The translations under genes and the position numbers were made by a program. DNA of 36,048 nt from positions 1 to 36,048 of the forward strand of contig JADFXQ010000017.1 of NCBI GenBank assembly GCA_015233495.1, read 5' to 3'. Within the stretch, counting starts at the first letter, position 1; every line of letters begins with the position of its first letter. The DNA comes from Candidatus Omnitrophota bacterium. GTDB taxonomy: Bacteria; Omnitrophota; Gorgyraeia; Zapsychrales; Zapsychraceae. A model generated the notes under the pieces. The model had not been told where the DNA came from, did no database searches, and saw nothing but the letters and a program-made list of their open reading frames with translations. Of the stretch, positions 3,555-36,048 are shown one piece after another.

Positions 3555-3590
3555 GCAAGCGATATTTTTTAAATGCGAAGGAAATTATTT

Positions 3591-4001
3591 ATGGAAATCA
3601 CGGAAATTCGAGTCTTCCCCAAAGAGGGCCAGGATAAGAAGCTGAAGGCGTACGCGACCGTCACCTTTGATCATGTTTTTGTGGTTCGGAATATCAAGAT
3701 CATTCAGGGAGCAGCGGCTTTGTTTATCGCTATGCCGTCGCGCAAGGTTAAAAATTCTTGTTCTAAATGCGGCGTGAAAAATGAAGTTGGCAGCCGCTAT
3801 TGCAATCATTGCGCGGCGGCCCAGCCGCAGAACCGGAACGCGGAAACGGATCCTGTCGACGCGAAAGCGGATCATCGGGATATGGCCCATCCGATAACGC
3901 AGGAATTTCGTGATTATTTGCAGAAAAAGATTTTAGACGCTTACACCAAAGAAATCGCGTCCGGAAGGCCGGTGTCGAAATTTGACGCCGGGGATGATTA
4001 G
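3591..4001 (+). CDS. spoVG: SpoVG family regulator with an inserted zinc-ribbon (CxxC...CxxC)
   Basis: MEITEIRVFP..KLKAYATVTFDHVFVVRNIKIIQGAAALFIAMPSRK and DMAHPITQEFRDYLQKKILDAY are SpoVG; between them CSKCGVKNEVGSRYCNHC. Confidence 0.88.
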   Translation: MEITEIRVFPKEGQDKKLKAYATVTFDHVFVVRNIKIIQGAAALFIAMPSRKVKNSCSKCGVKNEVGSRYCNHCAAAQPQNRNAETDPVDAKADHRDMAHPITQEFRDYLQKKILDAYTKEIASGRPVSKFDAGDD

Positions 4002-14196: not shown

Positions 14197-15243
14197 ATGC
14201 GCAAGACTCTTAAAGAAATAGCGGAATTAGTCAACGGCGAGGTGACAGGGGACGCGGGGCTAATGATTACCGGCCTCTGCGGTATCAAAGAAGCCCAAGC
14301 GGGAGATTTGACTTTTCTGGCTAATAATAAATATTTGCCGGATTTGAAAACTACCCGCGCCACTGCCGTGATTATCGGACCAGACGTGGAGATTCCGGCG
14401 CTGCCTTGTATTCGCGTCCAGCAGGCTTCGGCGGCTTTTTCTTTGATTTTATCGACAATAGCGAAGCAGGATCAAACGCGTTTGACGGGGGTTCATCCCA
14501 CCGCTATTTTAGGGCCGGGCGTTAAATTGGGAAAGGCGGTAGCGATTGGCGCGTATTGCGTAATTGAAGCCGGTGTAGTTATTGGGGATCATTGTGTTAT
14601 TTATAGCGGATGCTTTATCGGGCAGGACACGGTTTTGGGGAAAGAGTGTTTCTTGTATCCCAACGTGGTTATCCGGGAGCGGATAACTCTTAAAGACCGG
14701 GTGATGATCCATCCCGGCGCGGTGATCGGCGCGGATGGGTTTGGCTATGAGATGATTGAGGGAACCTATCAAAAAATCCTCCAGATTGGCACGGTGATCA
14801 TTGAAGATGATGTGGAAATCGGGGCCAATGTAACGATTGACCGGGCGCGGTTTGATAAGACGTTTATCGGCCGGGGGACAAAGATCGACAATCTGGTGCA
14901 GATCGCGCATAATGTGATTATTGAGGAGCATTGCGCGATCGCTGCTCAGGTGGGCATATCCGGCAGCAATCACATTGGCAAACGTACCCGGATGGGCGGA
15001 CAAGCCGGACTGGCCGGCCACTTGACGATCGGCGAAGCCGCGGTGATCGCCGCCCAGGCGGGAGTGACGAAATCCGTACCCGCGGGGACAATGGTTTCGG
15101 GATATCCGGCGAAACCGCACGCTGAAGCCATTAAGGTCAACGCTTGTTTGCAGCGGCTGCCGATTTATGTCGAGGAAATCCGCAAGTTACGGGAAAAGGT
15201 CGCGGCGTTAGAAAAACAACTTATCGCGGGAAGCGGGAAATAA
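14197..15243 (+). CDS. lpxD: UDP-3-O-acylglucosamine N-acyltransferase
   Basis: [19 protein letters not shown]; hexapeptide helix; [57 protein letters not shown]. Confidence 0.96.
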
Positions 15244-15245
15244 GC

Positions 15246-16568
15246 ATGGCGGAAAAACAAAAGACCATACAATCCGAAATTTCCATCGAGGGTGTGGGAT
15301 TGCATACCGGAATAAAGGCGCGGCTCACGTTTAAACCGGCAGCCATGGGTACGGGAATCCAATTTGTCCGGGTTGATTTAGCGGGCGCGCCGGTAGTGAA
15401 AGCCTGTTTTGAAAATGTCAGTCCGAAAGATTTAGGCCGTTGCACGGCTTTAGGCCGCGGCGAAGTTGTAGTGCAGACCGTTGAGCATCTGCTGGGCGTT
15501 TGTTGCGGGCTGGGGATAACGAATTTAACAGTGGAAATCAATGCGGCGGAAGTACCGGGCTTGGACGGCAGCGGCGCCGCGTTTTTAAAAATTTTGCGGC
15601 AAAGCGGGATTGTGGAACAAGCAGCGGACGCGGAAATTTTTGTGATCCGCGAAGCCGTGGGTGTGGCTTCATCCGGCGCCGCGATCTATGTGTCTCCTGG
15701 GGAAGATTATCACATCGCTTACACTTTGGATTACGATCATCCGGTTTTGCGGTCGCAATTTTTTAGCACCGGAGTAGACCACCAGCGATTTGAAACTGAA
15801 ATCGCGCCGGCGCGGACGTTTTGCTTGGAAGAGGAAGCACAGCTTTTACGCGCGCAGGGTTTGGGCCGGGGAGCCGATTTTAACAATACATTAGTGGTGG
15901 GCAAAAACGGCGTGAAAAATAATCAGGTCCGTTTTAGCGATGAGTTTGCCCGGCATAAAGTTTTGGACTTGATCGGGGATTTATATCTTTTAGGCGCCGT
16001 GATCCGCGGACATGTCTTCGCCGTGAAAAGCGGACATAACCTGAATTATCAGCTGCTTAAGAAAATTTATGACCAGAAAAAAAAATTCGAATCAATAGGG
16101 CGGGGAGCGGCGCCGGTTGCCGCGGCCGGCGCGGCAATACCGGTCGAAGCGATTATGCGGGTTATCCCGCACCGGTATCCTTTTTTGCTGGTTGACCGGG
16201 TCTTTGAAATCGAACCCGGGAAAAAAGCGGTCGGCATCAAAAATGTCACGATCAATGAGGGTTTTTTTCAGGGGCATTTTCCGGGACGGCCGGTCATGCC
16301 GGGCGTGTTGATGATTGAGGCTATGGCCCAGGTCGCCGGTGTCATGATCCTGCGGCAAGGCGCGCATCAGGGCAAAGTAGCTTTTTTTATGACCATTGAC
16401 AATATCAAATTTCGGCGGGTTGTCGTTCCGGGCGACCAGCTGGTGATGGAAGTCGAATTGATTAAAGACCGCGGCCGGGTCGCCCAGATTCGGGGGGTCG
16501 CGAAAGTCGACGGGGATATTGTCGTGGAAGCAGATATGATGTTTACTTTGGCTCCGGCGGTGTCATAA
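15246..16568 (+). CDS. lpxC-fabZ: LpxC-FabZ fusion: UDP-3-O-acyl-GlcNAc deacetylase + (3R)-hydroxyacyl-ACP dehydratase
   Basis: [44 protein letters not shown] (LpxC), linker [13 protein letters not shown], then [40 protein letters not shown] (FabZ) in one frame. Confidence 0.96.
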
Positions 16569-20028: not shown

Positions 20029-22644
20029 ATGGCACAGCGGTACGGACAACGCGCGCTTTGGCTGGCAGGCGCGTATATTTTTTTTATCAGTTTTTTATTT
20101 CTCAACGCGGCGAATCTGCGTTTTAACATGGCGCCCTGCCGGGTTTTTTTGTATCCGACGGACATTCAAGCAGGGGTCGCGGCCCTGCCTTTGCGCGAGC
20201 AGACCGAGCGTTTAGAAATGCGGCCGGCGAAAGATCATAAGCCGTTTCGGGATTTTTTTATCCGTCGTTTTAATATCATCATGCCCCCGGAGGAAGCTCT
20301 GCGGCTGCAACGGATTGATCTCGACATCGGGGGAAAGGTTTTTACTTTTTCCCGAGAGCAATTTTTAAAAGAATGGACTTGCGTTCACCAGGAGGGAAAA
20401 ATTTTATTTTTTTCTCCGGAGCAAAAATATTTGCGCCAATCCCGTTTTGCCCTGTACGGAGATCAAATGGTCAATTGGCGGGGAGACAGCCGGATTTGGG
20501 CTTGGGGAACGATTTGGTTTTTCTGCCTAGCCGTTATGCTGTTGGCCATTCGGAGTTTTTTTTCCCGGACAAAAGTCGGGAAAAAAATCGCCGCGGTTTT
20601 TGCGGCGTTCGGGCCGGGCGATGATCCCGGACTTACATCTCGGGCGTTATCGGCTTATCCCTTATTTTTTAGCGGCGGGTTGGTTTTTTTAGCCGGATGT
20701 TTATATTTTTTAGAAATGCGCTTTCCATATTATTTTTGCCAGGATGACAACCTGGTCCAGTTTTTGCCAGTGATGTTGCAGGGCCTGCGCGATTTTTTCC
20801 ATCAGGGGATTTTTCCCTCTTACGACCCGTTTCAGAATAACGGCATTCCCACGGCATCATTGGGATATTATGGTTTCACCTATCCTTTGACATATCTGGC
20901 GTATTTTTGCGCAGCGCAATTTCTGCATAACGAAATTTTATTGATTGATGTTTACGCGATAATTCATCTGATTGCGGGTTATAGCCTGTGTGTCCTATTT
21001 TTTCGCCGTTTAAACCTCCGGCCGTTGATCGGGGTTTTAGCCAGCCTGTCTTTTATCCTGTGCGGATATCACTTGATCGGCGGAAGGTCGTGGTATCATA
21101 TGTTTCCCGTGGCGCTTTGGTTCCCAGCGTTGATGCTTTTGTATCTGCATTTTCGGGAAAAGAGCCTGCATAGGACTTGGCCGGTCGCTGCCGGTTTAGT
21201 TGGCGGATTGTTGTTTCACGCCGGTAATTTTCAAATGTGGTTATATTGTATGGGTGTGTTTTATGTGTTGGCTTTCCTGCATATTTGCCGCGTTCCTGGC
21301 AGCCGGCTGAAAATTTTTCCGCTGATCGCGGCTCTTTTCTTTACCGGAGCGATTGTTCTGCCTTTTGTCGCGGTTACTGCCCGGGAAATTGCCGGAGTCA
21401 GCCGGTTTGGCGGGACCTCAACAGGCATTGAGGAAGGCTTGGCAGCTTTGTTTTTGCCGTATCCTTTGGCGCAGGCAGGCCTGGGTGGGTGGGGCAATGA
21501 GCACGTCGAGCGGATGGGGCATGTTTATTATAACGGTTCTTTGTTCAATATGATCTGGGCGGCAACTGTTTTGTGGTTGGGCTGGCTGGCACTGACTGGA
21601 ACGCGGCGCGCCGCGTTTTGGCAAAATTTTCGCGGGGATGCGGTCTGGTTGATTGCTTCTTTGGTTATTTTTTTGTTCGCCCTAGGGAACGCCGGGGTAT
21701 TATGGAATTGGCTGGCGATTCTGCCGGTTTTTCAGAAATTCAACTTGGCCTTTAAGTTTTTGCCTTTATTGAATTTTTTTATGATTACCACCGGGGCCTT
21801 GGCTTTGAATGCTTGGGTTACCAGATGGCGACGGGGGGAGCTATGGTTATATGTTGTAGCCGCGGTTGGCTTTGTTGGTTTAGGCTATCACGTGGCGCAG
21901 TGCCGGACCGCTTTTGCGACCTATGCGGACCAGCCGTTTCGGCCGTTTCCCGCGGAATTGAAAAAATTTTTTTCCACCGAAACTAACCGTTTTCCGCCGC
22001 GGGTGTGCACAGTCGGTTTTGAAAGATCTTACTCCAGCGGCTATCTGGATTCTTTGCCGTTGAACATCCCGACGGCGCATAAAATTTTGGCTTTTCACGG
22101 ATATGAACCTTTAGTCAGCCGTAAAGAAATCACCAAAGAAAATTTCCGGCAATACGGGGTGCGCTATGTGCTGGTGAGCACCCTCGGCCAGACGGATATG
22201 AAAGCGCCTTATTTTGAAATGCCCAGATTTCTCGACGTCGAAGGAGAGACGCGTTTTTCGGCGTTTTTGATTTTAAGTTTAAAAGAGCCGATGCCCATGG
22301 CTTTTGTCGCGGGATATCCGCGGGTCGCGCTGCCGGTTGAATATAGCGCGGCTGGGGCGCGCATAACAACTCCGGCTGTCAACACGCGGATGGATGTGGT
22401 GGTCAATTTGCAGTTCCGCAAATTTTTTCTGGCGTTTTCCGGGAAGCGGGCCTTGAAGGTTCAGCCAGATGATTGGGAACGGGTTTTGGTGAAAGATTGT
22501 CCGCCGGGAACAAAAATTGATCTGCTTTATTTGCCGCCTTGGGGAAAATATTTTGGCGGGAGCCTCTTGTGTTTTACGGCGGGATTCGTTATGATTTTAG
22601 GATACGGCAGACGGCGCAAGGCGGACCGCGAACCGGATGTTTGA
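20029..22644 (+). CDS. large YfhO/GT-C-like polytopic membrane protein with N-terminal soluble domain
   Basis: 871 aa; N-terminal TM and soluble domain (LQRIDLDIGGKVFTF), then YFCQDDNLVQFLPVMLQGLRDFFHQGIFPSYDPFQNNGIPTASLGYYGFTYPLTYLA (YfhO-like first-loop pattern) and multiple TMs. Confidence 0.65.
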   Translation: MAQRYGQRALWLAGAYIFFISFLFLNAANLRFNMAPCRVFLYPTDIQAGVAALPLREQTERLEMRPAKDHKPFRDFFIRRFNIIMPPEEALRLQRIDLDIGGKVFTFSREQFLKEWTCVHQEGKILFFSPEQKYLRQSRFALYGDQMVNWRGDSRIWAWGTIWFFCLAVMLLAIRSFFSRTKVGKKIAAVFAAFGPGDDPGLTSRALSAYPLFFSGGLVFLAGCLYFLEMRFPYYFCQDDNLVQFLPVMLQGLRDFFHQGIFPSYDPFQNNGIPTASLGYYGFTYPLTYLAYFCAAQFLHNEILLIDVYAIIHLIAGYSLCVLFFRRLNLRPLIGVLASLSFILCGYHLIGGRSWYHMFPVALWFPALMLLYLHFREKSLHRTWPVAAGLVGGLLFHAGNFQMWLYCMGVFYVLAFLHICRVPGSRLKIFPLIAALFFTGAIVLPFVAVTAREIAGVSRFGGTSTGIEEGLAALFLPYPLAQAGLGGWGNEHVERMGHVYYNGSLFNMIWAATVLWLGWLALTGTRRAAFWQNFRGDAVWLIASLVIFLFALGNAGVLWNWLAILPVFQKFNLAFKFLPLLNFFMITTGALALNAWVTRWRRGELWLYVVAAVGFVGLGYHVAQCRTAFATYADQPFRPFPAELKKFFSTETNRFPPRVCTVGFERSYSSGYLDSLPLNIPTAHKILAFHGYEPLVSRKEITKENFRQYGVRYVLVSTLGQTDMKAPYFEMPRFLDVEGETRFSAFLILSLKEPMPMAFVAGYPRVALPVEYSAAGARITTPAVNTRMDVVVNLQFRKFFLAFSGKRALKVQPDDWERVLVKDCPPGTKIDLLYLPPWGKYFGGSLLCFTAGFVMILGYGRRRKADREPDV

Positions 22645-22714: not shown

Positions 22715-24532
22715 ATGAATAGAAAATTAGCTATTTTTATCAGTTTGATTTTGATCGCGTTATTCGGGTTTAAGGATGTGTTGATCCTGGCTTTTTCCCA
22801 ATGGCCGCATCTGACTCCGGTGGTGGGAACGCCGACTTTAACTTTTGAGGAGGTTTATGGCTACCTGCCGTTCGTGAACGCTTTTGCTTTTCTGCATCCG
22901 CTCCCAGCCGCGCCGATGGCGGATCCGCAGTTATCGGCGTTGACGTTTTTTCCGCCGCTGACCACGCTGATCACCGGGATGATTTATCAGTTTGTCTGCG
23001 GGGCAAACCCGGACGCTTATCTGCTCGTGATGCACGTCGTTTTTCCTTTGGCCTCGTTTTGGCTGTTGTATTTATTTTTCCTTCGGTATGTTTCGGTTTC
23101 TTGGGCGGTGCTCTTGGCCTTTTTTGGCCTGACTTTCTATAATAATTTTTCTTCTTTGGGGTATTACGCGCAGCTGGGGCGCGACTCCGGAGCTTGGTTG
23201 TCCTTGGCCAGTTTGACGCCGTTGGAGATAACCCGCAGCCCGTCACCGAGTTTCACCTTTTTTGTTTTTATGCTTTGTTTTTATATCACCACGGCCAATT
23301 ACAAATTGAGTTTACGGCGTTCGCTGTTTTTTACCGCGCTGTGGGCGTTGAACATTTATATTTATCTATTTAATTTTTTAGCCGGCATATTGTTCTGGTT
23401 CTTGTATTTGGTGTTAGCGCAGGTTATCCGAGAAAAACGCTGGGCGACCCGCAAATTGTTCCTCGGTTTGGCGCTGAACGGGGTTTTAGTTTTAATGTTG
23501 GTTTTGCCTTATTTGCTCAAATTCAGCGCGGCCAGCAATCTCGACTGGGGGATGATTCGGAATATGGGGATTGACAACCGCAATGACGGTTTGATCGTTA
23601 ATGATTGGGGTATCGCCTTGTCGTATGTTCTCCCGATATTTTTGTGCGGTCTATTGATCCGGTTTTATTGTCAGGATTATTATGAATTGTTTTATCGTTT
23701 CGGCCCGGTTTTTGTTATGATTGGCGTCGAAATTATCATTTTGAACCTCCATATGATACTTGGGAAGTTTTTTCAAACGCAATTGTTTTCCCTGCGGATC
23801 GGAAATTTTTTCACCCGCTATCTTTATTATTTGCCGTTTATTTATTTTTTTACCGCGCCGGTGAAATTGCTCTACCATAACCCCAGGAAAAACGCCGTCC
23901 TGCGGGTTTTTTATGATTTGATTAACCGTTGGATTATCCAACAACGGCATATTATTGCGGCGGCTGGCATGGCGGCGATCGGCGTAATTATTTTAGCTTC
24001 CGGGATCAAATATTATCAGTTTCATGAGTGCGCTACGGCGCGCCGCATGGAGCTTTTGGAACAGCGGGTCTTGACTGCCGTAAGTCGGTTTACCCCGCGC
24101 CGGGGAGTGATTGTTTTTGAGGATTTGGCGGCGAATTTGTATCTTCCGGTACGGACTTCGTTTTCCACGCTGCTGGTGAGTTCGTTTAGCAATCATGTAC
24201 CGCGGGAAGAAATTATTGATCGTTTGTTGTTGTACGCGAAGATTTTTTCCTGGGATCAAAAACGTCTTTTGGATTTTATGCTTCCTGCCCCTTGGCTCAA
24301 GGTGATGTACGAACGAAATGATTTTGTTTTCAGCGACAGCACTTTGGAAAAAGGGTTTGGTTATTGGTTGGTTTGGCACCGGAATAAATTGAGCGACGTG
24401 AAACTTCGGGAATACGCGGCGTTTTTGTCAGAACGCTATCTGAAAATTGATACTGCCGCTTTAAAACAAAAGTTTCAGGTGGTGGACGTGGTTTACGATC
24501 AGGGAAGCCCGGCGGCGGAGTGCAAACGTTAG
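22715..24532 (+). CDS. polytopic membrane protein, GT-C-like
   Basis: 605 aa, about 10 or more hydrophobic segments; adjacent to two similar proteins. Confidence 0.55.
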   Translation: MNRKLAIFISLILIALFGFKDVLILAFSQWPHLTPVVGTPTLTFEEVYGYLPFVNAFAFLHPLPAAPMADPQLSALTFFPPLTTLITGMIYQFVCGANPDAYLLVMHVVFPLASFWLLYLFFLRYVSVSWAVLLAFFGLTFYNNFSSLGYYAQLGRDSGAWLSLASLTPLEITRSPSPSFTFFVFMLCFYITTANYKLSLRRSLFFTALWALNIYIYLFNFLAGILFWFLYLVLAQVIREKRWATRKLFLGLALNGVLVLMLVLPYLLKFSAASNLDWGMIRNMGIDNRNDGLIVNDWGIALSYVLPIFLCGLLIRFYCQDYYELFYRFGPVFVMIGVEIIILNLHMILGKFFQTQLFSLRIGNFFTRYLYYLPFIYFFTAPVKLLYHNPRKNAVLRVFYDLINRWIIQQRHIIAAAGMAAIGVIILASGIKYYQFHECATARRMELLEQRVLTAVSRFTPRRGVIVFEDLAANLYLPVRTSFSTLLVSSFSNHVPREEIIDRLLLYAKIFSWDQKRLLDFMLPAPWLKVMYERNDFVFSDSTLEKGFGYWLVWHRNKLSDVKLREYAAFLSERYLKIDTAALKQKFQVVDVVYDQGSPAAECKR

Positions 24533-24571: not shown

Positions 24572-25618
24572 ATGCTAGCGGCAGTGGTCACCGGTTTGCA
24601 AACAATGGTCATGCAAGAGGTTCCGGTCCCGGAAATCGACGCCGAATCGATTTTATTAAAGGTCGAGGCGTGTTCGATTTGCGGTTCGGATATTCGGATC
24701 TTGGCGAGCGGCAATCCGCGGGTGCGCTATCCGGCCGTGATCGGTCATGAAATGGCAGGCTCGATCGCCGCGGTCGGAAAACAAGTCCGCGGTTTTGCCA
24801 TCGGGGACCGCATCGCTATCGGCGCGGATGTGCCTTGCGGGGTTTGCGATTGGTGCCGCAACGATCAAGGGAATTGCTGTGATACCAATTACGCAATGGG
24901 TTATCAATTCGCCGGCGGATTCGCGGAATATTGTTTGTTAAATCCCGTGGTGGTCAAGTACGGGCCGATTGCGCCGGTCCCGGCTTCGGTGACCGCAGAA
25001 GAAGCGGCTTTGGCCGAGCCTTTGGCTTGTTGTTTAAACGGATATGAGCGCGTGTTTTTTTCTCCGGGAAAAAGCGTGCTCATTATTGGGGCGGGGCCGG
25101 TAGGTTTGATGCTGCTGCAATTGGCCCGGAGTTTTAAGGCGTCGGTGAGGGCGGTTGCCGACGTGGAACCGTTTCGTCTAGCTTACGCCAAAAAATTTTC
25201 TCCGGATTTCATTTTCGATTCTCGGACAACAGACCTCATCGCGGCGGGACAAGCCGCCACGAACGGCAAAGGATTCGATGTGATCTTTACCGCTTGCGCG
25301 GTGCCGGAAGTTCAGGAACAGGCCCTGCGTTTGGTCGCGAAACGGGGATGCGTTAATCTGTTCGGCGGTTTGGCGAAAAACAGCCGGCCGATCGCGGTAA
25401 TTTCCAATGATATTCATTATCGCGAGGCATATGTCACGGGTTCGCACGGGTCTTTGCCCCGGCAGCACAAACAAGCGCTGGATTTGATTGCTCGGCGGGA
25501 AATCGATGTGGCGTCATTGATAACTCACCGTTTTCCTTTAGCGGATATTCAGGAGGCGTTTCAAACGGCGCAGCAGAAGACTAGTATGAAGGTGGTAATA
25601 AGTGACATGAAACAATAA
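24572..25618 (+). CDS. zinc-dependent medium-chain alcohol/polyol dehydrogenase
   Basis: CSICGSDIRI, GHEMAGSIAAVGKQVRGFAIGDRIAIG, CGVCDWCRNDQGNCC (structural Zn), IIGAGPVGLMLLQLA (Rossmann). Confidence 0.92.
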   Translation: MLAAVVTGLQTMVMQEVPVPEIDAESILLKVEACSICGSDIRILASGNPRVRYPAVIGHEMAGSIAAVGKQVRGFAIGDRIAIGADVPCGVCDWCRNDQGNCCDTNYAMGYQFAGGFAEYCLLNPVVVKYGPIAPVPASVTAEEAALAEPLACCLNGYERVFFSPGKSVLIIGAGPVGLMLLQLARSFKASVRAVADVEPFRLAYAKKFSPDFIFDSRTTDLIAAGQAATNGKGFDVIFTACAVPEVQEQALRLVAKRGCVNLFGGLAKNSRPIAVISNDIHYREAYVTGSHGSLPRQHKQALDLIARREIDVASLITHRFPLADIQEAFQTAQQKTSMKVVISDMKQ

Positions 25619-25763
25619 AGGTATATATGGTCTCGAGTATCGGAAGTTTGCTATTGGCGGTCAAAATGGAAATCGCGATAGTTTAAAGGCCTCCCTGTCA
25701 GGCAGACGCGCGGGTTTGCCATTGATATGCCTTTTAAGTGGAATGATGTTATGAGGATGATAA

Positions 25764-26471
25764 ATGGCAGATAATAAAATTTTTATAACTGCTTCGATCA
25801 TGTGCGCTAATTGGATGCATTTGGAAGCAGATTTGCGTGCGCTGGAAGCTGGCGGGGTGGATTATCTGCATTATGATGTCATGGACGGGTTTTTCTGTCC
25901 GGATTATTGTTTGGGCACCCAGATTATCAATGAGATCCGGGCTAACACTTCTTTGGCCGCGGATTATCATTTGATGATTGAAGAGCCGGCCCGGATTTTA
26001 GATAATTTTCAAGCCAATGACGGCGACCGTCTCTCCATTCATTATGAGGCTTGCCGCAATTTGCACCGCGATCTGGTCCGGCTGCGGCAAAAGGGATTTA
26101 AGCCGGGAGTGATCCTTAATCCGGCGACGCCGCTTAACGCGATTGAATATGTGATCGAAGAAGTCGATACCGTGACCATTATGACGGTTAATCCCGGATT
26201 CAAAGGCCAGAAATTGGTGCCGCAGATGATTAAAAAAATTGAAAAATTGGACGAATGGCGGCGGAAAGATCAATTAAATTTTCAGATCTGCGTAGACGGC
26301 AATGTAAATCAGGACAGTATCCCGGCGATGGTGGAAGCGGGTGGAGATATTCTGGTCGGCGGGTCTTCCGGGCTTTTCCTTAAAAACCGGCCGTTGGCCG
26401 AATCTTTAGCGGGGATAAAGAACTTGGTGGCGGCTGGGCTTAAACTGCGGGAAGCGAGGGTGGGAGGATGA
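25764..26471 (+). CDS. ribulose-phosphate 3-epimerase family protein
   Basis: ITASIMCANWMHLEADLRALEAGGVDYLHYDVMDGFFCPDYCLG; DYHLMIEEP; VTIMTVNPGFKGQKLVPQMIKKI; CVDGNVNQDSIPAMVEAGGDILVGGSSGLF. Confidence 0.9.
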   Translation: MADNKIFITASIMCANWMHLEADLRALEAGGVDYLHYDVMDGFFCPDYCLGTQIINEIRANTSLAADYHLMIEEPARILDNFQANDGDRLSIHYEACRNLHRDLVRLRQKGFKPGVILNPATPLNAIEYVIEEVDTVTIMTVNPGFKGQKLVPQMIKKIEKLDEWRRKDQLNFQICVDGNVNQDSIPAMVEAGGDILVGGSSGLFLKNRPLAESLAGIKNLVAAGLKLREARVGG

Positions 26472-27376
26472 ATGTCCGTTTGGGGATCAATACCGGTTTT
26501 GCTGTGAATCGTTACCCGGCGCCGCGGCAATGGGTGCCATTGATCGGGAAAACTTTAGGTTTGAAAATCGTCCAATTGACCGCGGATCTTTTGAACCCAT
26601 CCTGGCCGGAAGACATTATCGAAGGCCAGGTTAGGGAAATTCAAAGTTTGAGCGAGCAATATGGCGTCAAGGTGCGGCAAACTTTTACCGGAGCGTTTAC
26701 TCGGCTTAACCATTTGGCTTATCCGGACGCCGCGCTGCGGGAATATTGGGTGAAATGGTTTTGCCGGTTCGCGGATATTTCCGCAGCCTTGGGCGCCGAA
26801 AGTATGGGGAGCCATTTCGGCATTTTAACAACGGAAGATTATGACGACCCCAGGAAACGGCAGGAACGTTTTGAACAGAACGTCGACGGCTGGCGGAGGA
26901 TATCCGAGCACGCGCAGGGTTGCGGGCTTCAGTATTTGACTTGGGAGCCGATGTCGATCGGCCGGGAGATGGGAGAGACGATTCCAGAAACCCAACGCAT
27001 TCACGCGCGGGTCAACGCGGTAACGGCGATCCCGATGAAATTATGTTTGGACGTTGATCATGGCGATGTTGCCTCCCCGGATCCGGATGATACGGATCCT
27101 TTGGCTTGGATTCGGAATTTTGGAGCCGAAGCGCCGATTATTCATATTAAGCAGACTTCGCGTAACAAAGGCGGGCATTGGCCGTTCACGCCGGAGCACA
27201 ATCAGAACGGGCGGATCACGCCGGGCGTGCTGATTCAGGCGCTGGAAGAAAGCGGCGCTCAGGATGTTACGCTGCTTTTGGAGTTGAGTTTCCGCGAACG
27301 CCAGCCTTTTGACAGCCGGGTGGTGGACGATATCCGGGCTTCGATTGATTTTTGGCGGCCGTATGTAGTTATTTAA
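26468..27376 (+). CDS. sugar phosphate isomerase/epimerase (xylose-isomerase-like TIM barrel)
   Basis: LGINTGFAVNRYPAPRQWVPLIGKTLGLKIVQLTADLL; YLTWEPMSIGREM; LCLDVDHGDV; IIHIKQT; LLLELSFRER. 4-nt overlap with preceding CDS. Confidence 0.8.
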   Translation: MNVRLGINTGFAVNRYPAPRQWVPLIGKTLGLKIVQLTADLLNPSWPEDIIEGQVREIQSLSEQYGVKVRQTFTGAFTRLNHLAYPDAALREYWVKWFCRFADISAALGAESMGSHFGILTTEDYDDPRKRQERFEQNVDGWRRISEHAQGCGLQYLTWEPMSIGREMGETIPETQRIHARVNAVTAIPMKLCLDVDHGDVASPDPDDTDPLAWIRNFGAEAPIIHIKQTSRNKGGHWPFTPEHNQNGRITPGVLIQALEESGAQDVTLLLELSFRERQPFDSRVVDDIRASIDFWRPYVVI

Positions 27377-27433
27377 TTAAGGGCGTTGCATGCATTTTAA
27401 ATGGGTTAGCGAGGAAAAAAAGGGTTATTTTGT

Positions 27434-28204
27434 ATGAGAATTATTATTCCCATGGCGGGGCATTCCCGTCGATTTCAGAAAGCTGGCTATGCTCTGCCGA
27501 AACCGTTTATTCCGATTGACGGCGTGCCGATGATTCAGCGGGTCTGCCGGATGTTTTCGCCTACGGATGAATTTATTTTTATCTGCCAGCAAGCGCATGC
27601 CGCGCGTCCTGACTTCGCTAAAATATTAAACGACGCGGCCCAGCATACCCGGATCATTCCCATCGTGCCGCATGAGTTTGGCCCGGTGTACAGCGCGCTG
27701 AAGGCGGCGTCCTATATCGAAGACCGCGCCGCGCCGTTGATTTTAACTTATTGTGATTTTACTTTGCTTTGGAATTATCCGCGGTTTTTGCGGCAGGCCG
27801 CGCAGTATGAGGGCGCGATCCCGGTGTTCCGGGGATTTCATCCCGCTTCGTTTGGCGACACTTATTATGCGTATGTCCGGGCGAATGAAGCCGGAGAAAT
27901 GTTGGAATTGCGGGAAAAACAATCCTTCACGGAAAATCGTGCGGAGGAATACGCTTCTACCGGAGTTTATTATTTTGAGAGCTGGAATCTTTTTGAAAAA
28001 TACGGCGAGGAATTACTGCGGCTTAAATTTGCGGCGGGCGCGGAATATTACGCCAGTCTGATTTATAATTTATTGGTCCGCGACGGGCATAAAGTCTCGG
28101 TGTATGAAGCGGAAAAATTTATCTGCTGGGGCACGCCGGAAGACTTGGCGGAGTACCGGTTTTGGTCCGAGTATTTTGGCATTTGTCATTTTAATCAAAT
28201 ATGA
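27434..28204 (+). CDS. RmlA-like sugar/polyol-phosphate nucleotidyltransferase (copy 1)
   Basis: IIIPMAGHSRRFQKAGYALPKPFIPIDGVPMIQRV (GxGxRF...PKP variant); ILTYCDF; YASTGVYYFESW; EAEKFICWGTPEDLAEY. Confidence 0.85.
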   Translation: MRIIIPMAGHSRRFQKAGYALPKPFIPIDGVPMIQRVCRMFSPTDEFIFICQQAHAARPDFAKILNDAAQHTRIIPIVPHEFGPVYSALKAASYIEDRAAPLILTYCDFTLLWNYPRFLRQAAQYEGAIPVFRGFHPASFGDTYYAYVRANEAGEMLELREKQSFTENRAEEYASTGVYYFESWNLFEKYGEELLRLKFAAGAEYYASLIYNLLVRDGHKVSVYEAEKFICWGTPEDLAEYRFWSEYFGICHFNQI

Positions 28205-29007
28205 CCAATTTGATCCCTATGGCCGGCTTGGGGAACCGGTTTTTTCAGGATAAATACCGGGTGCCCAAACCGTTTATTCCGGTTTTGGGCGAACCGATGT
28301 TTTTAGCGGCGGCGCGTTCTTTTCCGTCGGCGGATCGGTATATCTTTATTTGCCGGCAAGAACACGTGGCGCGCTATAAAATCGCGGAGACTTTGCGCCG
28401 TTTTTCCCGGCCTGCGGAAATTGTCACGGTGGATGCTCCGACCCAAGGACAGGCCTGCACATGTCTTTTGGCGCAAGATAAATGGGATCCGGCGGATGGA
28501 TTGTTTATCGCGTCCTGCGACTATCAGATGATTTATGATGAAACCAAATATCAGAATTTATGGAATGATCCTTCGGTGGATGTAATTATTTGGACTTTTA
28601 AAATAGGCAGTATCAAAAAAGCTGACCCCCAGGCGTTCGCTTATTGCCGGGTTGAAAACGGACGGGTTACCGAGATTGTCGAAAAACGCGTGATCAGCGC
28701 CACTCCGGAAAACGACCCGGCCGTGGTCGGCTCTTTTACTTACCGCCGCGCGGAATTGTTTACCCGCGGAGCTAAGGACATGATCGCGAAAAATATCCGG
28801 GTTAATAATGAATTTTATGTCGGCACCAGCATCAATCAATTGATCGCCGCGGGTTGCCGCGTGGTGACTTTTGAAATTGAAAATTTTATTTCTTTTGGCA
28901 CGCCGTTTGAGCTGATGTCTTTTCATTATTGGCAGGATTATTTTGATCAGTTAGAGGACCATCCATACCATATGCAACGCCCTTACCCAGCGAGCGCCGG
29001 ACGATGA
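28201..29007 (+). CDS. RmlA-like sugar/polyol-phosphate nucleotidyltransferase (copy 2)
   Basis: NLIPMAGLGNRFFQDKYRVPKPFIPVLGEPMFL; FIASCDYQMIYD; VVGSFTYRRAELF; EIENFISFGTPFEL. Overlaps the preceding and following genes by 4 nt. Confidence 0.85.
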   Translation: MTNLIPMAGLGNRFFQDKYRVPKPFIPVLGEPMFLAAARSFPSADRYIFICRQEHVARYKIAETLRRFSRPAEIVTVDAPTQGQACTCLLAQDKWDPADGLFIASCDYQMIYDETKYQNLWNDPSVDVIIWTFKIGSIKKADPQAFAYCRVENGRVTEIVEKRVISATPENDPAVVGSFTYRRAELFTRGAKDMIAKNIRVNNEFYVGTSINQLIAAGCRVVTFEIENFISFGTPFELMSFHYWQDYFDQLEDHPYHMQRPYPASAGR

Positions 29008-30122
29008 ACAAACCCGAACTTTCGATTATTTTGCCTTGCTATAATGAAAGCCGCAATTTGCCTCTGATTGTCGAGCGGATGAAGCAGTTTTGGCCCCAAT
29101 ACCGTTTTGAATTGGTGTTGGTCAATAATGGATCCACGGATGATACCGCTGCCGTATTAGAGAGGTTGAAGAATAAGTATCCCGATTTTTTGTTTCCGGT
29201 AACCATAGAACTGAACCTTGGTTATGGACATGGAATTCATACCGGGCTGAAAGCCAGCCGCGCCGATGTGGTTGCCTATACGCACGCGGATATTCAAACT
29301 CCGCCGGAAGATGTGTTTCGCGCTTATCAGATGTATAAAAAACATCCGGCGCCAGGCGCGGATAAAAATATCTTGGTTAAAGGGCTGCGCTTGAACCGCC
29401 GGGAGGAGGAACAATTTTTAACCCGCTGGTTTTCCAAAATCGTCCGTTTAGTTTTAGGATATCCTTTAGACGACATCAACGGCCAGCCGAAATTGTTTTC
29501 GCGGGTATTATTGAGCGAGTTGCGCAATCCGCCCCGGGATTTTTCTTATGATTTATATGTGATGTACATGGCTCGCCTTCGGCAATTCGCGTTAGTAGTG
29601 TTTTCCGTGGATTTTGGTGAAAGAGCGCACGGTAAATCGCATTGGGCGACGAGCGTGTCGCGAAAATATCAGACCATACTGAAATATTTAGCGAATATTT
29701 TTAAAATGGGGTGGGAGCATCGGTCAGACGGCCGCAATTTGTTCGGACAGGTTCTGCGGTTTTTGGCTACCGGGGTTGTGACTAATGTCGTGAATTATGG
29801 ATTGTTTTGGACGCTGTTGCGGTTGTTGAATGTTGATTATCGGGTGAGTTCGGCTTGTGGATTTTTCGCCGGGTTTGTGGCGGGATTTTTTATCAATCGG
29901 GCCTGGACGTTTAAGGCCGCCGGCGGGAGATCCGCGGCGCAATGGATAAAATTTTCGATATTGAACGCGGTTTCTTTCGGCGCTAATCTTACTACGATTT
30001 GGATTTTTACGGCCGGGTTGCATTGGCGGCCGGAATTTTCGCAGATCATGGCGATCGGCGGGAGCATGGTGATTAATTTTGTCGGGTCAAAGTTGTGGGT
30101 TTTTCGAAGGTATAGCGCGTAA
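29004..30122 (+). CDS. GT2 family glycosyltransferase fused to a C-terminal GtrA-like membrane domain
   Basis: LSIILPCYNESRNLPLIVERM...NNGSTDDT...AYTHADIQTPPED (GT-A fold), then GQVLRFLATGVVTNVVNYGLFWTLLR...FINRAWTFKA (GtrA). Confidence 0.9.
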   Translation: MNKPELSIILPCYNESRNLPLIVERMKQFWPQYRFELVLVNNGSTDDTAAVLERLKNKYPDFLFPVTIELNLGYGHGIHTGLKASRADVVAYTHADIQTPPEDVFRAYQMYKKHPAPGADKNILVKGLRLNRREEEQFLTRWFSKIVRLVLGYPLDDINGQPKLFSRVLLSELRNPPRDFSYDLYVMYMARLRQFALVVFSVDFGERAHGKSHWATSVSRKYQTILKYLANIFKMGWEHRSDGRNLFGQVLRFLATGVVTNVVNYGLFWTLLRLLNVDYRVSSACGFFAGFVAGFFINRAWTFKAAGGRSAAQWIKFSILNAVSFGANLTTIWIFTAGLHWRPEFSQIMAIGGSMVINFVGSKLWVFRRYSA

Positions 30123-30160
30123 GTTTTTAACTTTGTATTTAGAAACGCTCGTAGCTTGAC

Positions 30161-30392
30161 GGTTTGCCGTATCCATTTCCTGACGCACTGAGCTTCATCC
30201 CAGCCGTCTTGCTGCGCAAGCCGTCTGGGACCGCTGTTTTTCAAGCGGCTCGCCGGTCGCGCCAAACTCGCACCGCGTCATCGCTAAAGCGATGCCGCGG
30301 CACTCAAACAAAGGCGCGAGTGGAAATTTTTCCGGCGATCCGTTTGAAAAACAGCTTTTGCTCAAAGCGGCAGGAAACGGATACGGCAAACC
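30161..30392. repeat. 232-bp nested long palindrome with side hairpin; MITE-like or structured RNA
   Basis: Outer arms 30161-30182/30371-30392 (21/22), middle arms 30234-30256/30332-30354 (21/23), central hairpin CATCGC-TAAA-GCGATG at 30279-30294, side hairpin TCCCAG...CTGGGA 30198-30230. Confidence 0.85.
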
Positions 30393-30470
30393 TGCAACTC
30401 GCTGAAATAATATAGTCAGCCTTTGGGCGCGCGTTTTTTTATTGGCAGGTTAAGAAGATTGGGGGAGAAA

Positions 30471-31547
30471 TTGAAGGCATTAGTGCTGGAAGAAAATGGG
30501 GTTTTGCGATATCGGGACGTCGCAGATCCGGTGATCGGCCGCGATGAGTGTCTGGTGAGAATCAAGGCCGCGGGGATTTGCAGTTCGGATATTCACCGGG
30601 CTTTTGAGAGTGGCGCTTATCATTATCCTTTGATTATGGGGCATGAGTTGTCCGGCGTGGTGGAGACGGTTGGGCCGGATGTCCGGCAATTTAAATCCGG
30701 GGACCGGGTTGCCGTGTTTCCGTTATTGCCTTGTTTTGAATGCGAATTTTGCCGCCGGGAATTTTACGCGCAATGTATGAAATATGATTATTACGGCTCC
30801 CGGCGGGACGGTGGGTTCGCGGATTTTTTAGCAGTGCCGGAATGGAATTTATTTCCGGTGCCGGATGAAGTCGATCTGGCAGCCGCAGCTCTGCTGGAGC
30901 CGTTTTCCGTCGGGGTGCACGCGGCCCGAAAAATCACGGTTCAAGCCGGTCAAACTGTCGCGGTGCTGGGCGCCGGGATTATTGGTTTGATGGTCAGCCG
31001 TTTTTTGGCTGCCACGGTCCAGCCGGACCAGATTTTTGTCCTGGACCGCAACGTTTTAAAATTGCGAATCGCCGCGGATTTCGGCTGTCAGACCGTGCTG
31101 ATTCTGCCGGGTTTGGATTGGAAAAAAGAATTTATTAAACAGACCGGCGGCGTTGATCACGTCATAGAAACCTGCGGCGCCGCGGAAGTTTACCGGGCGA
31201 CTGTGGATTTGGCAAAGCATCACGGCAATGTGGTGTGGGCGGGAAATATCGACGGAGATTTGCATTGGGGGCGGCAAACAGTCAGTTCCGTAATCCGGAA
31301 AGAATTGAAAATTTACGGTTGCTGGAACGCGTGGTACACGCATAAAAATGACGATGATTGGCACGCGGCTTTGGAATTTATCCGGCAGTACTCGGGATGT
31401 CAAGATTGGATCACCCAGAAATATCCCCTGGCGCAGGGTGTTGAAGTTTTGCAAAAATTAAGAAACTATAAGTTGCCGCAACAACGGCTTCCCGGTGAAA
31501 CCATAATCAAAACTATTTTCGTTGAGGAAAAGGAAACAGGATGTTGA
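30471..31547 (+). CDS. zinc-dependent medium-chain dehydrogenase, galactitol-1-phosphate/sorbitol dehydrogenase-like
   Basis: LKALVLEENG...; GICSSDIHRAFESGAYHYPLIMGHELSGVVETVG; CFECEFCRREFYAQC; VAVLGAGIIGLMVSRFL. Likely TTG start at 30471 with GGGGAG upstream rather than the ORF start at 30423. Confidence 0.88.
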   Translation: MKALVLEENGVLRYRDVADPVIGRDECLVRIKAAGICSSDIHRAFESGAYHYPLIMGHELSGVVETVGPDVRQFKSGDRVAVFPLLPCFECEFCRREFYAQCMKYDYYGSRRDGGFADFLAVPEWNLFPVPDEVDLAAAALLEPFSVGVHAARKITVQAGQTVAVLGAGIIGLMVSRFLAATVQPDQIFVLDRNVLKLRIAADFGCQTVLILPGLDWKKEFIKQTGGVDHVIETCGAAEVYRATVDLAKHHGNVVWAGNIDGDLHWGRQTVSSVIRKELKIYGCWNAWYTHKNDDDWHAALEFIRQYSGCQDWITQKYPLAQGVEVLQKLRNYKLPQQRLPGETIIKTIFVEEKETGC

Positions 31548-33223
31548 TCCCTGCGACGAGTTGGAATTTGAAAAAATGGGACCTGGCGGTAGGGGCGCTG
31601 GTTTTTCTTTTATTTTTCGCGATTTATACCCAGTGGACTCTGAAAGCGAATTGGGATCTGACCGGGTCGCATATTGTGCTCACTGGAGATGAAAATGTTA
31701 TTATTGGGAATATTCGGAGCATGTTGGCGGTTCATACTCTCCAAGATAAAATATACGCTCTGTTTGATCGGGATCCTGTTTACGGGATGTTGTGCACTTA
31801 CACGGCTTATTGGGTCGGTGTCCCGGCAGCGCAACGCTGGGGGGAACCCGGGATGATTTTCACGATCCGCATGGCAAAATATTTTGTGCTGGTGACCGCT
31901 TTATTTTTATTATGCCGGCTCACCATAGGTTCGTGGATGATCGGCGCTTTATTATTTGGCGCGCTTTTGTCCATGCCGTCAACCGCTTATTATGCTTTTA
32001 TGCCGAAACCGGATCAGGAACAATTATTGCTGATCGTTATTTTCTTTTTTTTCACCCGGCGCTGTCAATATAGATTGGGATGGCATTGGGTTTTTTTAGG
32101 CCTGGCGTTTGGGACCAAAGCCTCGGCCGCTTCGTTGATCCCATATTGCGGGCTAATTGCGCTGTGGACGATGCGCCGTGATTTGCTGAAAATTCGGTTT
32201 TATCGGGACGCGGTGATCGCCGGGGTGGTATTAATCGGCGGGTTTTTTGTCGCCCAATGGACGCTTCTGGATTGTTTTATTCGGGGGCATTGGAATCAGC
32301 TCGGGAAATATCTATGGTTTATTGCGATCCAAAGCGTTCCGAAGTTGACCGGGTTTCACCATACTTTTATGCATTTTATGGGCCGAATTCTCTGGGACAA
32401 AAATTTGATCGGCGCGCCGTCGTTTTTTCGGGTAATTTTTATTTTATTAGCGGTGGCGGTAGTTTGCAAATTGCTAATTACGCTGCGCTGGGGAAAAATG
32501 AGCGATGCCGAAATCTCCCAGGCGCATTTTCGGATTTTTATTTTTGGCGCCGGTTTGATCCTGCTGGCGCCAATCGCTTTTTTGACTGCGGATTTTTCTT
32601 TTTTTCATCTGCATGGCGGGATGTGTTTTTTGCTTGCGGGGTTAATTTCTTTTATTGAACAAGATTTCCGGCGGCGGCAGGGGAATTTAAAAACTTTTTG
32701 GAAAGCCCCGGAATTTTATTTGCTGGTTTGGATTGGCATCATTGCGGTATTTGCGGTTTTACGAGCGGACGCGTATTTGAACCGGCAGGCCAAGCGTACT
32801 CAGGATGAACACTATTTTTTGCTGGTGAAACAGAGTCATACGTATCAGAACATCTTGCAAACGCTGGCTTTGGCTTCCGGTCAAAAATTACGCGTCATTC
32901 ATAATGGAAATTTTGAAATTGATCCGACCCCCTGGTACAGTACGGATCGGGAATTCAGCCCTTGTCTGGGTTGGCTCAAAGGGGTGGAGGTAGTCATCAC
33001 TTATCCGCATTTGCTTCCGGAACCGGGCACGCCTGCCGATGCCCTTTATCAGAAATATGTCGGTACCTGGGCGGATTTTCAGCAAGGGAAGCAATGTCTT
33101 TACATCTTTTATGATCAACACCCGGGATTAAGAAGTTCGACCGCGTTCGAGAGTCTGGTTATGCTGATTCGGGCGGATATCCTGGCTAAGACCTGGCACG
33201 CGTTAGGCGGAAAATTATTTTAA
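31541..33223 (+). CDS. polytopic membrane protein, GT-C glycosyltransferase-like
   Basis: 560 aa with repeated TM segments; N-terminal loop ...LTGDENVIIGNIRSML...DRDPVYGML; overlaps the preceding dehydrogenase by 7 nt. Confidence 0.6.
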   Translation: MLIPATSWNLKKWDLAVGALVFLLFFAIYTQWTLKANWDLTGSHIVLTGDENVIIGNIRSMLAVHTLQDKIYALFDRDPVYGMLCTYTAYWVGVPAAQRWGEPGMIFTIRMAKYFVLVTALFLLCRLTIGSWMIGALLFGALLSMPSTAYYAFMPKPDQEQLLLIVIFFFFTRRCQYRLGWHWVFLGLAFGTKASAASLIPYCGLIALWTMRRDLLKIRFYRDAVIAGVVLIGGFFVAQWTLLDCFIRGHWNQLGKYLWFIAIQSVPKLTGFHHTFMHFMGRILWDKNLIGAPSFFRVIFILLAVAVVCKLLITLRWGKMSDAEISQAHFRIFIFGAGLILLAPIAFLTADFSFFHLHGGMCFLLAGLISFIEQDFRRRQGNLKTFWKAPEFYLLVWIGIIAVFAVLRADAYLNRQAKRTQDEHYFLLVKQSHTYQNILQTLALASGQKLRVIHNGNFEIDPTPWYSTDREFSPCLGWLKGVEVVITYPHLLPEPGTPADALYQKYVGTWADFQQGKQCLYIFYDQHPGLRSSTAFESLVMLIRADILAKTWHALGGKLF

Positions 33224-33248
33224 ACCCGCTGACAAGGCAGCGTTCATT

Positions 33249-33839
33249 ATGATTGCGATTGCGCACCGGATAAACACCCAAGCCGAATTAGCGCAAGTCC
33301 CGCCGACTTGCGGAGTAGAAGTTGATCTGCGCGACCATGGCGAGCGGATCATTTTGCAGCATGATCCGTTTAAAGACGGCGAGGATTTTGAAGAATATTT
33401 GCGGCATTACCGGCACGCTTTTCTGATTTTAAACATCAAAAGCGAGCGGATCGAGGCAAAAGCGCTGGAACTGGTCCGGCGATATGACGTAAAAGATTAT
33501 TTTTTCTTAGACAGTTCTTTCCCGATGATTTATCAAATGTCCTCTGCCGGGCAGCGGCACATTGCTTTGCGTTTTTCCGAATATGAAGGCTTGGACACTT
33601 TGGAAAAAATGCGCGGCCGGGTTGATTGGGCCTGGATCGATTGTTTCAACCGTTTGCCGCTGGGAAAAGCAGAATTTCAACGCTTAAAGGAATGGGGATA
33701 CAAAATTTGCCTGGTTTCCCCCGATCTCGTCGGCCGCCCGCAAGATATCCCGCCTTATCGCCAAGCCATAGACCAACAGATGCTGGTGTTTGACGCGATT
33801 TGCGTTAAAACACATAACATCGTTGCTTGGCAATCATAA
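33249..33839 (+). CDS. short glycerophosphodiester phosphodiesterase (GDPD)/PI-PLC-like TIM barrel protein
   Basis: MIAIAHRINT...CGVEVDLRDHGERIILQHDPFKDGEDFEEYL (HR...ExD...H motif), ILNIKSERIEAKALELVRRYDVKDYFFLDSSFPMI, ALRFSEYE, CLVSPDL. Confidence 0.75.
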   Translation: MIAIAHRINTQAELAQVPPTCGVEVDLRDHGERIILQHDPFKDGEDFEEYLRHYRHAFLILNIKSERIEAKALELVRRYDVKDYFFLDSSFPMIYQMSSAGQRHIALRFSEYEGLDTLEKMRGRVDWAWIDCFNRLPLGKAEFQRLKEWGYKICLVSPDLVGRPQDIPPYRQAIDQQMLVFDAICVKTHNIVAWQS

Positions 33840-35654: not shown

Positions 35655-36048
35655 GAACATGCTTCATGCGAAGCAATTTATCGAGATCAACAGGTGGTAC
35701 CAAGAGCAGTTGTTGATTTAAGTCAGGTTTCTTTTCAAGAGCGAGTTGCAATGGGGTTTTGTGTTCTTTGTAAGAGTTTGGTCTTTTAAGATTAAAGAAG
35801 AGTTGGTACGCCGTTGCTTTTGCAAAGAAGTCATCGCGGTTTTCAAAATGTTCGATTTCCAGGAATTCAGCTTCGATCAGATTATGAATCGTCTCAACAT
35901 CAGATTGCATCCTGTGAGCGCCCGGAAAGATTGTGTTATGGATTTGTCCGGGAATCGACTCGATGCGACGGGTATAGGCGGAAGATTTTTTAGCGTTCCA
36001 AGAACCTATATATTCGCTTCCATTGTCCGTCTGGCGGATAATGACAGG
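35596..36048 (-). mobile_element. C-terminal part of an IS481-like DDE transposase/integrase core (5' end outside window)
   Basis: Reverse-strand frame open to the window end: RQTDNGSEYIGSWNAKK...IHNTIFPGAHRMQSDVETIHNLIEAEFLEIEHFENRDDFFAKATAYQLFFNLKRPNSYKEHKTPLQLALE... carries the DNGSE and glutamate regions of the DDE domain. Confidence 0.88.

Follow-up and report, generated by a model that had tools for sequence, protein, structure and literature searches.

Results

Nine consecutive genes in an Omnitrophota contig

The DNA analyzed here (36,048 nucleotides (nt), referred to as the window) is the entire contig C20 of a draft genome (2.1 Mb, 91% complete) of a Candidatus Omnitrophota bacterium (GenBank assembly GCA_015233495.1, contig JADFXQ010000017.1), and our view ends at position 36048. 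After an upstream row of bamA, ompH/skp, lpxD, an lpxC-fabA-like gene, lpxA, and lpxI comes the nine-gene operon that is the subject of this study (Table 1). A check of the open reading frames (ORFs) in the window placed all nine consecutively on the + strand at 24572–33839, and the original prediction, which had been made from the sequence alone, gave every coordinate and overlap exactly: adjoining genes share 4 nt each at 26468/26471, 28201/28204, and 29004/29007, and 7 nt at 31541/31547. The remaining intergenic gaps in the row measure 145, 57, 336, and 25 nt; an Rfam search of the 336-nt gap (30123–30458), which interrupts an otherwise tight operon, found no family. A Pfam/NCBIfam scan also bore out the predicted families, returning ADH_N plus ADH_zinc_N twice, Ribul_P_3_epim, a xylose-isomerase-like TIM barrel, glycosyltransferase family 2 (GT2) plus GtrA, and NTP_transf_3/NTP_transferase for both predicted nucleotidyltransferases, the second just under the Pfam cut-off. 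The "GT-C-like" label given to the membrane protein at 31541–33223 was not confirmed, as no family scored above cut-off.

Table 1. Genes of the operon and the gene preceding it in the window
Predicted product	Coordinates	Strand	Basis
605-aa multi-membrane protein	22715..24532	+	just upstream of the nine genes; no Pfam/NCBIfam match
ADH1, Zn-dependent medium-chain dehydrogenase, threonine/iditol-type	24572..25618	+	ADH_N, ADH_zinc_N
RPE-family 3-epimerase, operon-specific paralogue	25764..26471	+	209.4 bits vs rpe cut-off 212.6
EryC-type ketose-1-phosphate 3-epimerase	26468..27376	+	PDB 4k3z, E 6e-87
NTP1, sugar/polyol-phosphate nucleotidyltransferase, lineage 1	27434..28204	+	NTP_transf_3 2.6e-10, NTP_transferase 3.3e-7
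NTP2, second nucleotidyltransferase, lineage 2	28201..29007	+	NTP_transf_3 8.7e-5
GT2, polyprenyl-phosphate type, fused to GtrA domain	29004..30122	+	Glycos_transf_2 1.2e-20, GtrA_DPMS_TM 3.4e-26
ADH2, Zn-dependent dehydrogenase, GatD-like	30459..31547	+	nearest PDB 4a2c
560-aa membrane protein, lineage-specific	31541..33223	+	no family above cut-off (Pfam/NCBIfam)
Compact GDPD-like phosphodiesterase, 196 aa	33249..33839	+	AlphaFold fold; tied to transferase pair

The gene set is conserved in distant phyla

The original prediction had staked itself on the genes occurring together elsewhere, and we found the complete set in two other genomes and large parts of it in several more. Scanning 84,980 genomes with NTP2 yielded 80 loci. 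One of these, in an Omnitrophota genome of another family in the same order (G046, locus L019), keeps the gene order at 42–64% identity: the 605-aa membrane protein gene, ADH1, RPE, EryC, NTP1, NTP2, GT2/GtrA, an intervening gene, ADH2, and GDPD. A second full set, on a 1.79 Mb contig of genome G750, was found by a whole-phylum search starting from the Gastranaerophilales genome of locus L060; it is arranged differently (ADH2, GT2, GDPD, an intervening gene, ADH1, RPE, EryC, fused NTP1/NTP2, GtrA) and is more diverged (∼25–43%). ADH1 alone is 56% identical in G046, 51% in L060, and 40% in G750. Large parts of the set are present in a Schekmanbacteria locus (L018), in L060, and in loci from a deltaproteobacterium (L021) and a Rhodospirillales member (L023); in L018, whose contig starts inside RPE, identities reach 69% for RPE, 63% for EryC, 63% for NTP1, 64% for NTP2, 46% for ADH2, and 44% for GT2.

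The nine genes are thus no chance row, and the set is conserved together. The operon is rare and scattered across unrelated phyla: the EryC-type gene occurs in 2 of 384 Omnitrophota genomes, both times within this operon, and in 2 of 386 genomes of the phylum that holds L060 and G750. Such a distribution is likely the result of horizontal transfer. Literature searches by the parts of the module, mostly outside subscription journals, found no description of it, and we conclude that the locus is real, conserved, and under-described. Locus L047 (genome G015) also comes from a Candidatus Omnitrophota.

Two probable precursor blocks accompany one transferase core

Clustering of the genes flanking the 80 loci recovered the transferases in 77, GT2 in 64, a GDPD-like homologue in 61, a kinase with an attached membrane domain in 58, HAD in 54, class II aldolase in 51, and a separate GtrA in 32. 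We called a locus type A if it contained at least one of kinase, HAD, and aldolase, and type B if it contained EryC, RPE, or ADH. By this definition 60 of the 80 loci are type A and 8 are type B (L018, L019, L060, L021, L023, Woesearchaeota L050, and two from Opitutia), and none has both blocks (Fisher p 4e-6, a value that overstates independence, since the type B transferases group in a clade of their own, with support of 100 for NTP2 (8 rows) and 93 for NTP1). Repeating the assignment with BLAST gave 63, 8, and 0, respectively, and whole-phylum searches for further type B loci added one new locus only. The window shares its NTP1–NTP2, GT2/GtrA, and GDPD core with the type A module; none of the 8 type B loci has the type A kinase, HAD, or aldolase.

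The type A enzymes suggest a particular chemistry. All 36 HADs examined had their best E-value with the haloarchaeal ribulose bisphosphate (RuBP) 5-phosphatase model and all 28 kinases with the phosphoribulokinase (PRK) model, at scores under the curated cut-offs in the members shown, and in the class II aldolases the His and Glu expected at the metal-binding positions are present. In haloarchaea, conversion of RuBP to ribulose 1-phosphate and its cleavage by a class II aldolase to dihydroxyacetone phosphate and glycolaldehyde have been proven (PMC9700705). Because both this chain and EryC point to ketose 1-phosphates, the window's precursor block probably reaches the substrate of the transferases by a different route. 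The mechanism proposed below is built mainly on this convergence.

In locus L049 (6425–8488) and 57 relatives, the PRK-like kinase makes up the C-terminal domain of a protein of ∼690 aa; the N-terminal half of that protein is a membrane domain that weakly resembles PMT_2/GT87. It is unusual for a kinase to be joined to a part that looks like a membrane glycosyltransferase. A full type A module lies on the 33 kb IncR plasmid NZ_CP145712 of E. coli (L179, 6022–13224), with a copy of IS26 downstream, and plasmids of Rhizobium tumorigenes (L178), R. sp. K1/93 (L182), and R. rhododendri (L185) link erythritol genes with GDPD, HAD, and fused transferase genes.

The nucleotidyltransferases form a pair with a probable partner, a GDPD-like protein

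NTP1 and NTP2 belong to two deep lineages in our tree (support of 99 for the NTP1 lineage), and the nearest solved structure for both is 4evw (4.6e-6 for NTP2). NTP2 keeps the signature residues R13, K23, and D107. The two are fused in 41 of the 67 loci that have both, always with NTP1 first, and this frequent fusion in a fixed order makes it very likely that they act in sequence or as a single unit. An ordinary glucose-1-phosphate thymidylyltransferase was rejected as an identity for either protein, both being far under every RmlA or GlmU cut-off. Kinship to TarI was not supported: the Pfam scan gave neither protein a match to the IspD family, only to PF12804/PF00483. Nor was a two-gene logic of the TarI/TarJ kind, as the pair sits in a wide module whose other members lack dehydrogenases.

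The last gene had been predicted to encode a short GDPD-like protein that trims or rearranges a phosphodiester. The fold was confirmed; the AlphaFold model is of high confidence (predicted local distance difference test score (pLDDT) of 97.3), its eight best PDB matches by Foldseek, which include 1zcc, 7e0v, 3mz2, and 2o55, are all GDPDs (TM ∼0.7), and the HRxN, ExD, and HD residues are kept. Sequence searches were silent: there was no Pfam match at E 0.1 (the protein is shorter than the 230–285 aa of those that match), and a sequence-profile search against the PDB returned chance matches only. The GDPD genes missing from the locus fragments L018, L021, and L060 were found on other contigs of the same genomes.

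An action on the finished glycan was not supported, and the evidence comes from viruses. Of the 80 viral contigs that carry a related transferase, 64 also have a GDPD-like gene, which is on the same strand in 63 and within 60 nt in 37; in 18 of the 80, genes for a PRK-like kinase, a class II aldolase, a small HAD, and a GDPD occur together with fused NTP1–NTP2. These contigs are IMG/VR predictions in which host contamination is possible, and structural or replication-like genes flank some of them. No GT2 or GtrA match was found in the ∼6 kb flanks around the viral transferase genes, and this pairing without GT2 or GtrA nearby makes it more likely that GDPD works with the transferases on the soluble, precursor side than on the finished glycan. 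A recurring viral cassette (L100–L127, e.g., L110:1575–6822, L112, and L118) consists of a PRK-like kinase, a class II aldolase, an HAD-like protein of ∼98 aa, a GDPD-like protein of ∼152 aa, and fused NTP1–NTP2.

The epimerases and dehydrogenases resemble enzymes of ketose and polyol phosphates

The RPE-like protein just misses the TIGR01163 model (Table 1), and its relatives score 210.2, 199.0, and 169.7 bits. A second RPE of the source genome, on contig C21, exceeds the rpe cut-off with 225.6 bits; a housekeeping role for the operon copy was therefore ruled out, and what had been predicted as an RPE-like epimerase is a dedicated paralogue. Its catalytic His/Asp residues (H36, D38, H69, and D178) are invariant, and it carries the shared EACRNLHRD motif and SSGLF at the C terminus.

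The neighboring protein had been described as a TIM-barrel isomerase. The fold is right; more precisely, it is an EryC homologue and not a generic isomerase, with ∼47% identity to EryC (46–47% to rhizobial EryC). A phmmer alignment to Brucella 4k3z (6.3e-87) covers 298 residues and aligns all likely catalytic residues, and E160, D195, D197, H198, H226, and E272 are identical in the operon forms and in Rhizobium EryC; we judged by fold family which of these residues are probably catalytic. EryC is a D-erythrulose 1-phosphate 3-epimerase (PMC10733421); the 4k3z deposition is titled "D-erythrulose 4-phosphate dehydrogenase," and another paper describes the enzyme as a tetrulose-4-phosphate racemase (PMC11508834). 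Kinship to a ketose-1-phosphate epimerase of this type makes tetrulose or pentulose phosphates likely substrates of the pathway.

Both zinc-site motifs are visible in ADH1 and in ADH2. ADH1 is far under every NCBIfam equivalog cut-off and showed no close or preferred relative in the PDB. The start of ADH2 is ambiguous (TTG at 30423, 30459, or 30471). Its best PDB match is galactitol-1-phosphate 5-dehydrogenase (1.2e-58, the next structure following at 6.7e-37), and it scores 220 bits with the GatD NCBIfam model without reaching the cut-off of 550. The nearness of ADH2 to this polyol-phosphate dehydrogenase agrees with the polyol-type reduction that had been proposed.

A proposed pathway and its alternatives

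We propose that this rare and probably horizontally moving operon starts from ketose phosphates and produces a small sugar or sugar alcohol in nucleotide-activated form for a surface glycan, a reading to which we assign a probability of about one-half. The general idea of an activated polyol or ketose made from ketose phosphates was already part of the original prediction, and the RPE paralogue, GatD-like ADH2, EryC-type epimerase, and co-occurrence of the genes support it. In type A loci, ribulose 1-phosphate or an aldol relative would be made, and in type B loci a ketose 1-phosphate, or an adjacent polyol phosphate, would be reached by another path. There, the RPE paralogue would set C3 of a ketose 5-phosphate (or 4-phosphate), ADH2 would reduce the ketose phosphate to a polyol phosphate, ADH1 would re-oxidize this at the carbon adjoining the phosphate, and the EryC-type enzyme would epimerize C3 of the resulting ketose 1-phosphate. 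NTP1 and NTP2 would then activate the ketose 1-phosphate, or that plus a partner; the GDPD-like enzyme would act on a soluble phosphodiester or nucleotide-linked intermediate; and GT2-GtrA with the membrane proteins would export the unit and attach it. In this scheme the step order, carbon number, nucleotide, and end product are guesswork. As a specific version we considered a redox-neutral "ketone walk," in which one polyol-phosphate dehydrogenase converts a ketose 5-phosphate into a pentitol phosphate and the other re-oxidizes that product beside the phosphate. The ketose 1-phosphate so formed would be epimerized at C3 by the EryC-type enzyme; these steps would replace the type A kinase-phosphatase route, and the paired transferases would activate the ketose 1-phosphate. 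We hold this version to be rather improbable, and we know of no description so far of the class of nucleotide-linked ketoses that it would generate.

Several points weigh against the proposed pathway. The specificities of ADH1 and ADH2 are not readable from sequence. The two Opitutia loci have RPE, NTP1, NTP2, GT2, and GDPD without EryC, which is absent genome-wide in both Opitutia genomes and in that of L024, so EryC is not required in every version. A GT2 of this kind does not take an NDP-(O1)-ketose (NDP, nucleoside diphosphate) as its glycosyl donor and may thus serve another sugar; the operon also has no CDP-alcohol phosphotransferase (CDP, cytidine diphosphate), LicD, or TagF-like enzyme, so a plain polyol-phosphate polymer would lack its transferase. 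The exclusion between type A and type B may partly be phylogeny, with few independent events, and the product of type B may differ from that of type A, whose chemistry is itself read from HAD and kinase scores below their cut-offs.

One alternative, that of the original prediction, is a TarI/TarJ-like synthesis of an NDP-pentitol, in which a ketose 5-phosphate is reduced, or first nucleotidylated and then reduced as for CDP-6-glucitol, and the polyol phosphate is moved to a lipid-linked glycan. It would account for two polyol-type dehydrogenases, one of them GatD-like, and for the RPE paralogue, and the conversion of CDP-6-fructose to CDP-6-glucitol for a capsule sets a precedent (PMC10918830). 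We nevertheless hold it to be doubtful: it needs neither the EryC-type epimerase nor a second dehydrogenase, the transferases are not of the IspD type, their type A relatives have no dehydrogenase, and no polyol-phosphate transferase was found in the operon. The unit could instead be a tetritol or tetrulose, with EryC acting on erythrulose 1-phosphate, RPE on a tetrulose 4-phosphate, and the dehydrogenases interconverting tetritol and tetrulose phosphates to yield NDP-erythritol, -threitol, or -erythrulose. Tetrulose phosphate is the sole proven EryC substrate (PMC10733421, PMC11508834), and tumorigenic rhizobia have a whole erythritol operon with GDPD-like, HAD, and fused NTP genes downstream of it on the same strand. 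R. rhizoryzae (L183), however, has the GDPD-HAD-NTP block without erythritol genes, which suggests that the rhizobial linkage may be accidental; being a single lineage, it was rejected as proof of a C4 product. With type A pointing to C5 and, to our knowledge, no RPE-family enzyme acting on tetrulose phosphates, we regard a C4 unit as on the unlikely side. Every enzyme, taken singly, resembles catabolic families, and the locus could therefore combine synthesis of a common NDP-aldose with dehydrogenases, RPE, and EryC from sorbitol- or erythritol-type catabolism that share it by chance. This is already strongly disfavored: the same set is held together in distant phyla, the genome has its separate housekeeping RPE, and neither the ORF list nor the family scan revealed a sugar kinase, transporter, or regulator of the erythritol type among the operon genes.

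Relation to known systems

In the TarI/TarJ synthesis of CDP-ribitol, a medium-chain dehydrogenase/reductase (MDR)-type Zn dehydrogenase lies beside a nucleotidyltransferase, an arrangement that this locus may share; its transferases, in contrast, do not match the IspD family. The three-part GtrA/GtrB/Gtr systems likewise combine GT2 and GtrA with adjoining membrane proteins; this locus adds the transferase pair, GDPD, and precursor enzymes and has no confirmed membrane transferase. So far, nucleotide-activated alditols and ketoses are known from a handful of bacteria, and the enzyme pair differs from one to the next. Campylobacter HS:5 (CDP-6-D-glucitol) and S. pneumoniae 35A (mnp1/mnp2, CDP-mannitol) also activate and reduce a ketose phosphate within a surface-polysaccharide locus, using a PF01128 (IspD type) transferase and a PF01370 reductase (PMC10918830), whereas this locus has a PF12804/PF00483 pair and Zn-MDR dehydrogenases, plus two epimerases and GDPD. 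The Brucella/rhizobial erythritol operon (EryA-EryB-EryC-EryH-EryI) provides an EryC homologue with the same catalytic residues at ∼47% identity; this locus lacks the erythritol kinase, EryB, TpiA2, and RpiB, and links its homologue to transferases and a glycosyltransferase. The haloarchaeal non-carboxylating pentose bisphosphate pathway (PMC9700705) shares a RuBP phosphatase homologue and class II aldolase with the type A relatives, which differ in scoring below the curated cut-off, in their PRK-like kinase, and in being glycan-linked; the window has none of these genes.

Bacteria, DPANN archaea, and phages thus all have versions of a module with its own transferase pair and GDPD-like partner, and with it come two interchangeable precursor blocks, both of which point to ketose 1-phosphates. 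If our reading is correct, it would open a class of new activated sugars to direct assay, give a function to many unnamed capsule genes usually annotated as NTP transferase, GtrA, phospholipase-like, uridine kinase, or aldolase, and mean that EryC chemistry has a second role besides that in erythritol catabolism.

Membrane proteins and other features of the window

GT2 and GtrA, fused in the window, are separate genes in many other loci. In G046, a B12-binding radical SAM gene stands in for the window's 560-aa membrane gene, and the unit may be C-modified in versions with such a protein. The radical SAM protein (L014:1774–3291) has a relative in one ORF of L021 (cluster 40). The 605-aa protein, whose gene is separated from ADH1 by 39 nt, has homologues directly before ADH1 in G046 (42%) and directly before RPE in the two Opitutia loci (∼30%), and it probably belongs to the operon; an assignment as membrane glycosyltransferase or polymer enzyme would be guesswork. 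An AlphaFold model built from four sequences had a pLDDT of 47.8 and was not used. The 871-aa membrane protein at 20029–22644 matched no family, and several unrelated loci have relatives of it close to the transferase module (clusters 14 and 24). Elsewhere in the window, LpxC is joined to a FabA/FabZ-like domain (15144–16568), and a SpoVG-family protein (3573–4001) has an apparent zinc-ribbon insertion (PF04026 plus a weak Zn_Ribbon_1 match).

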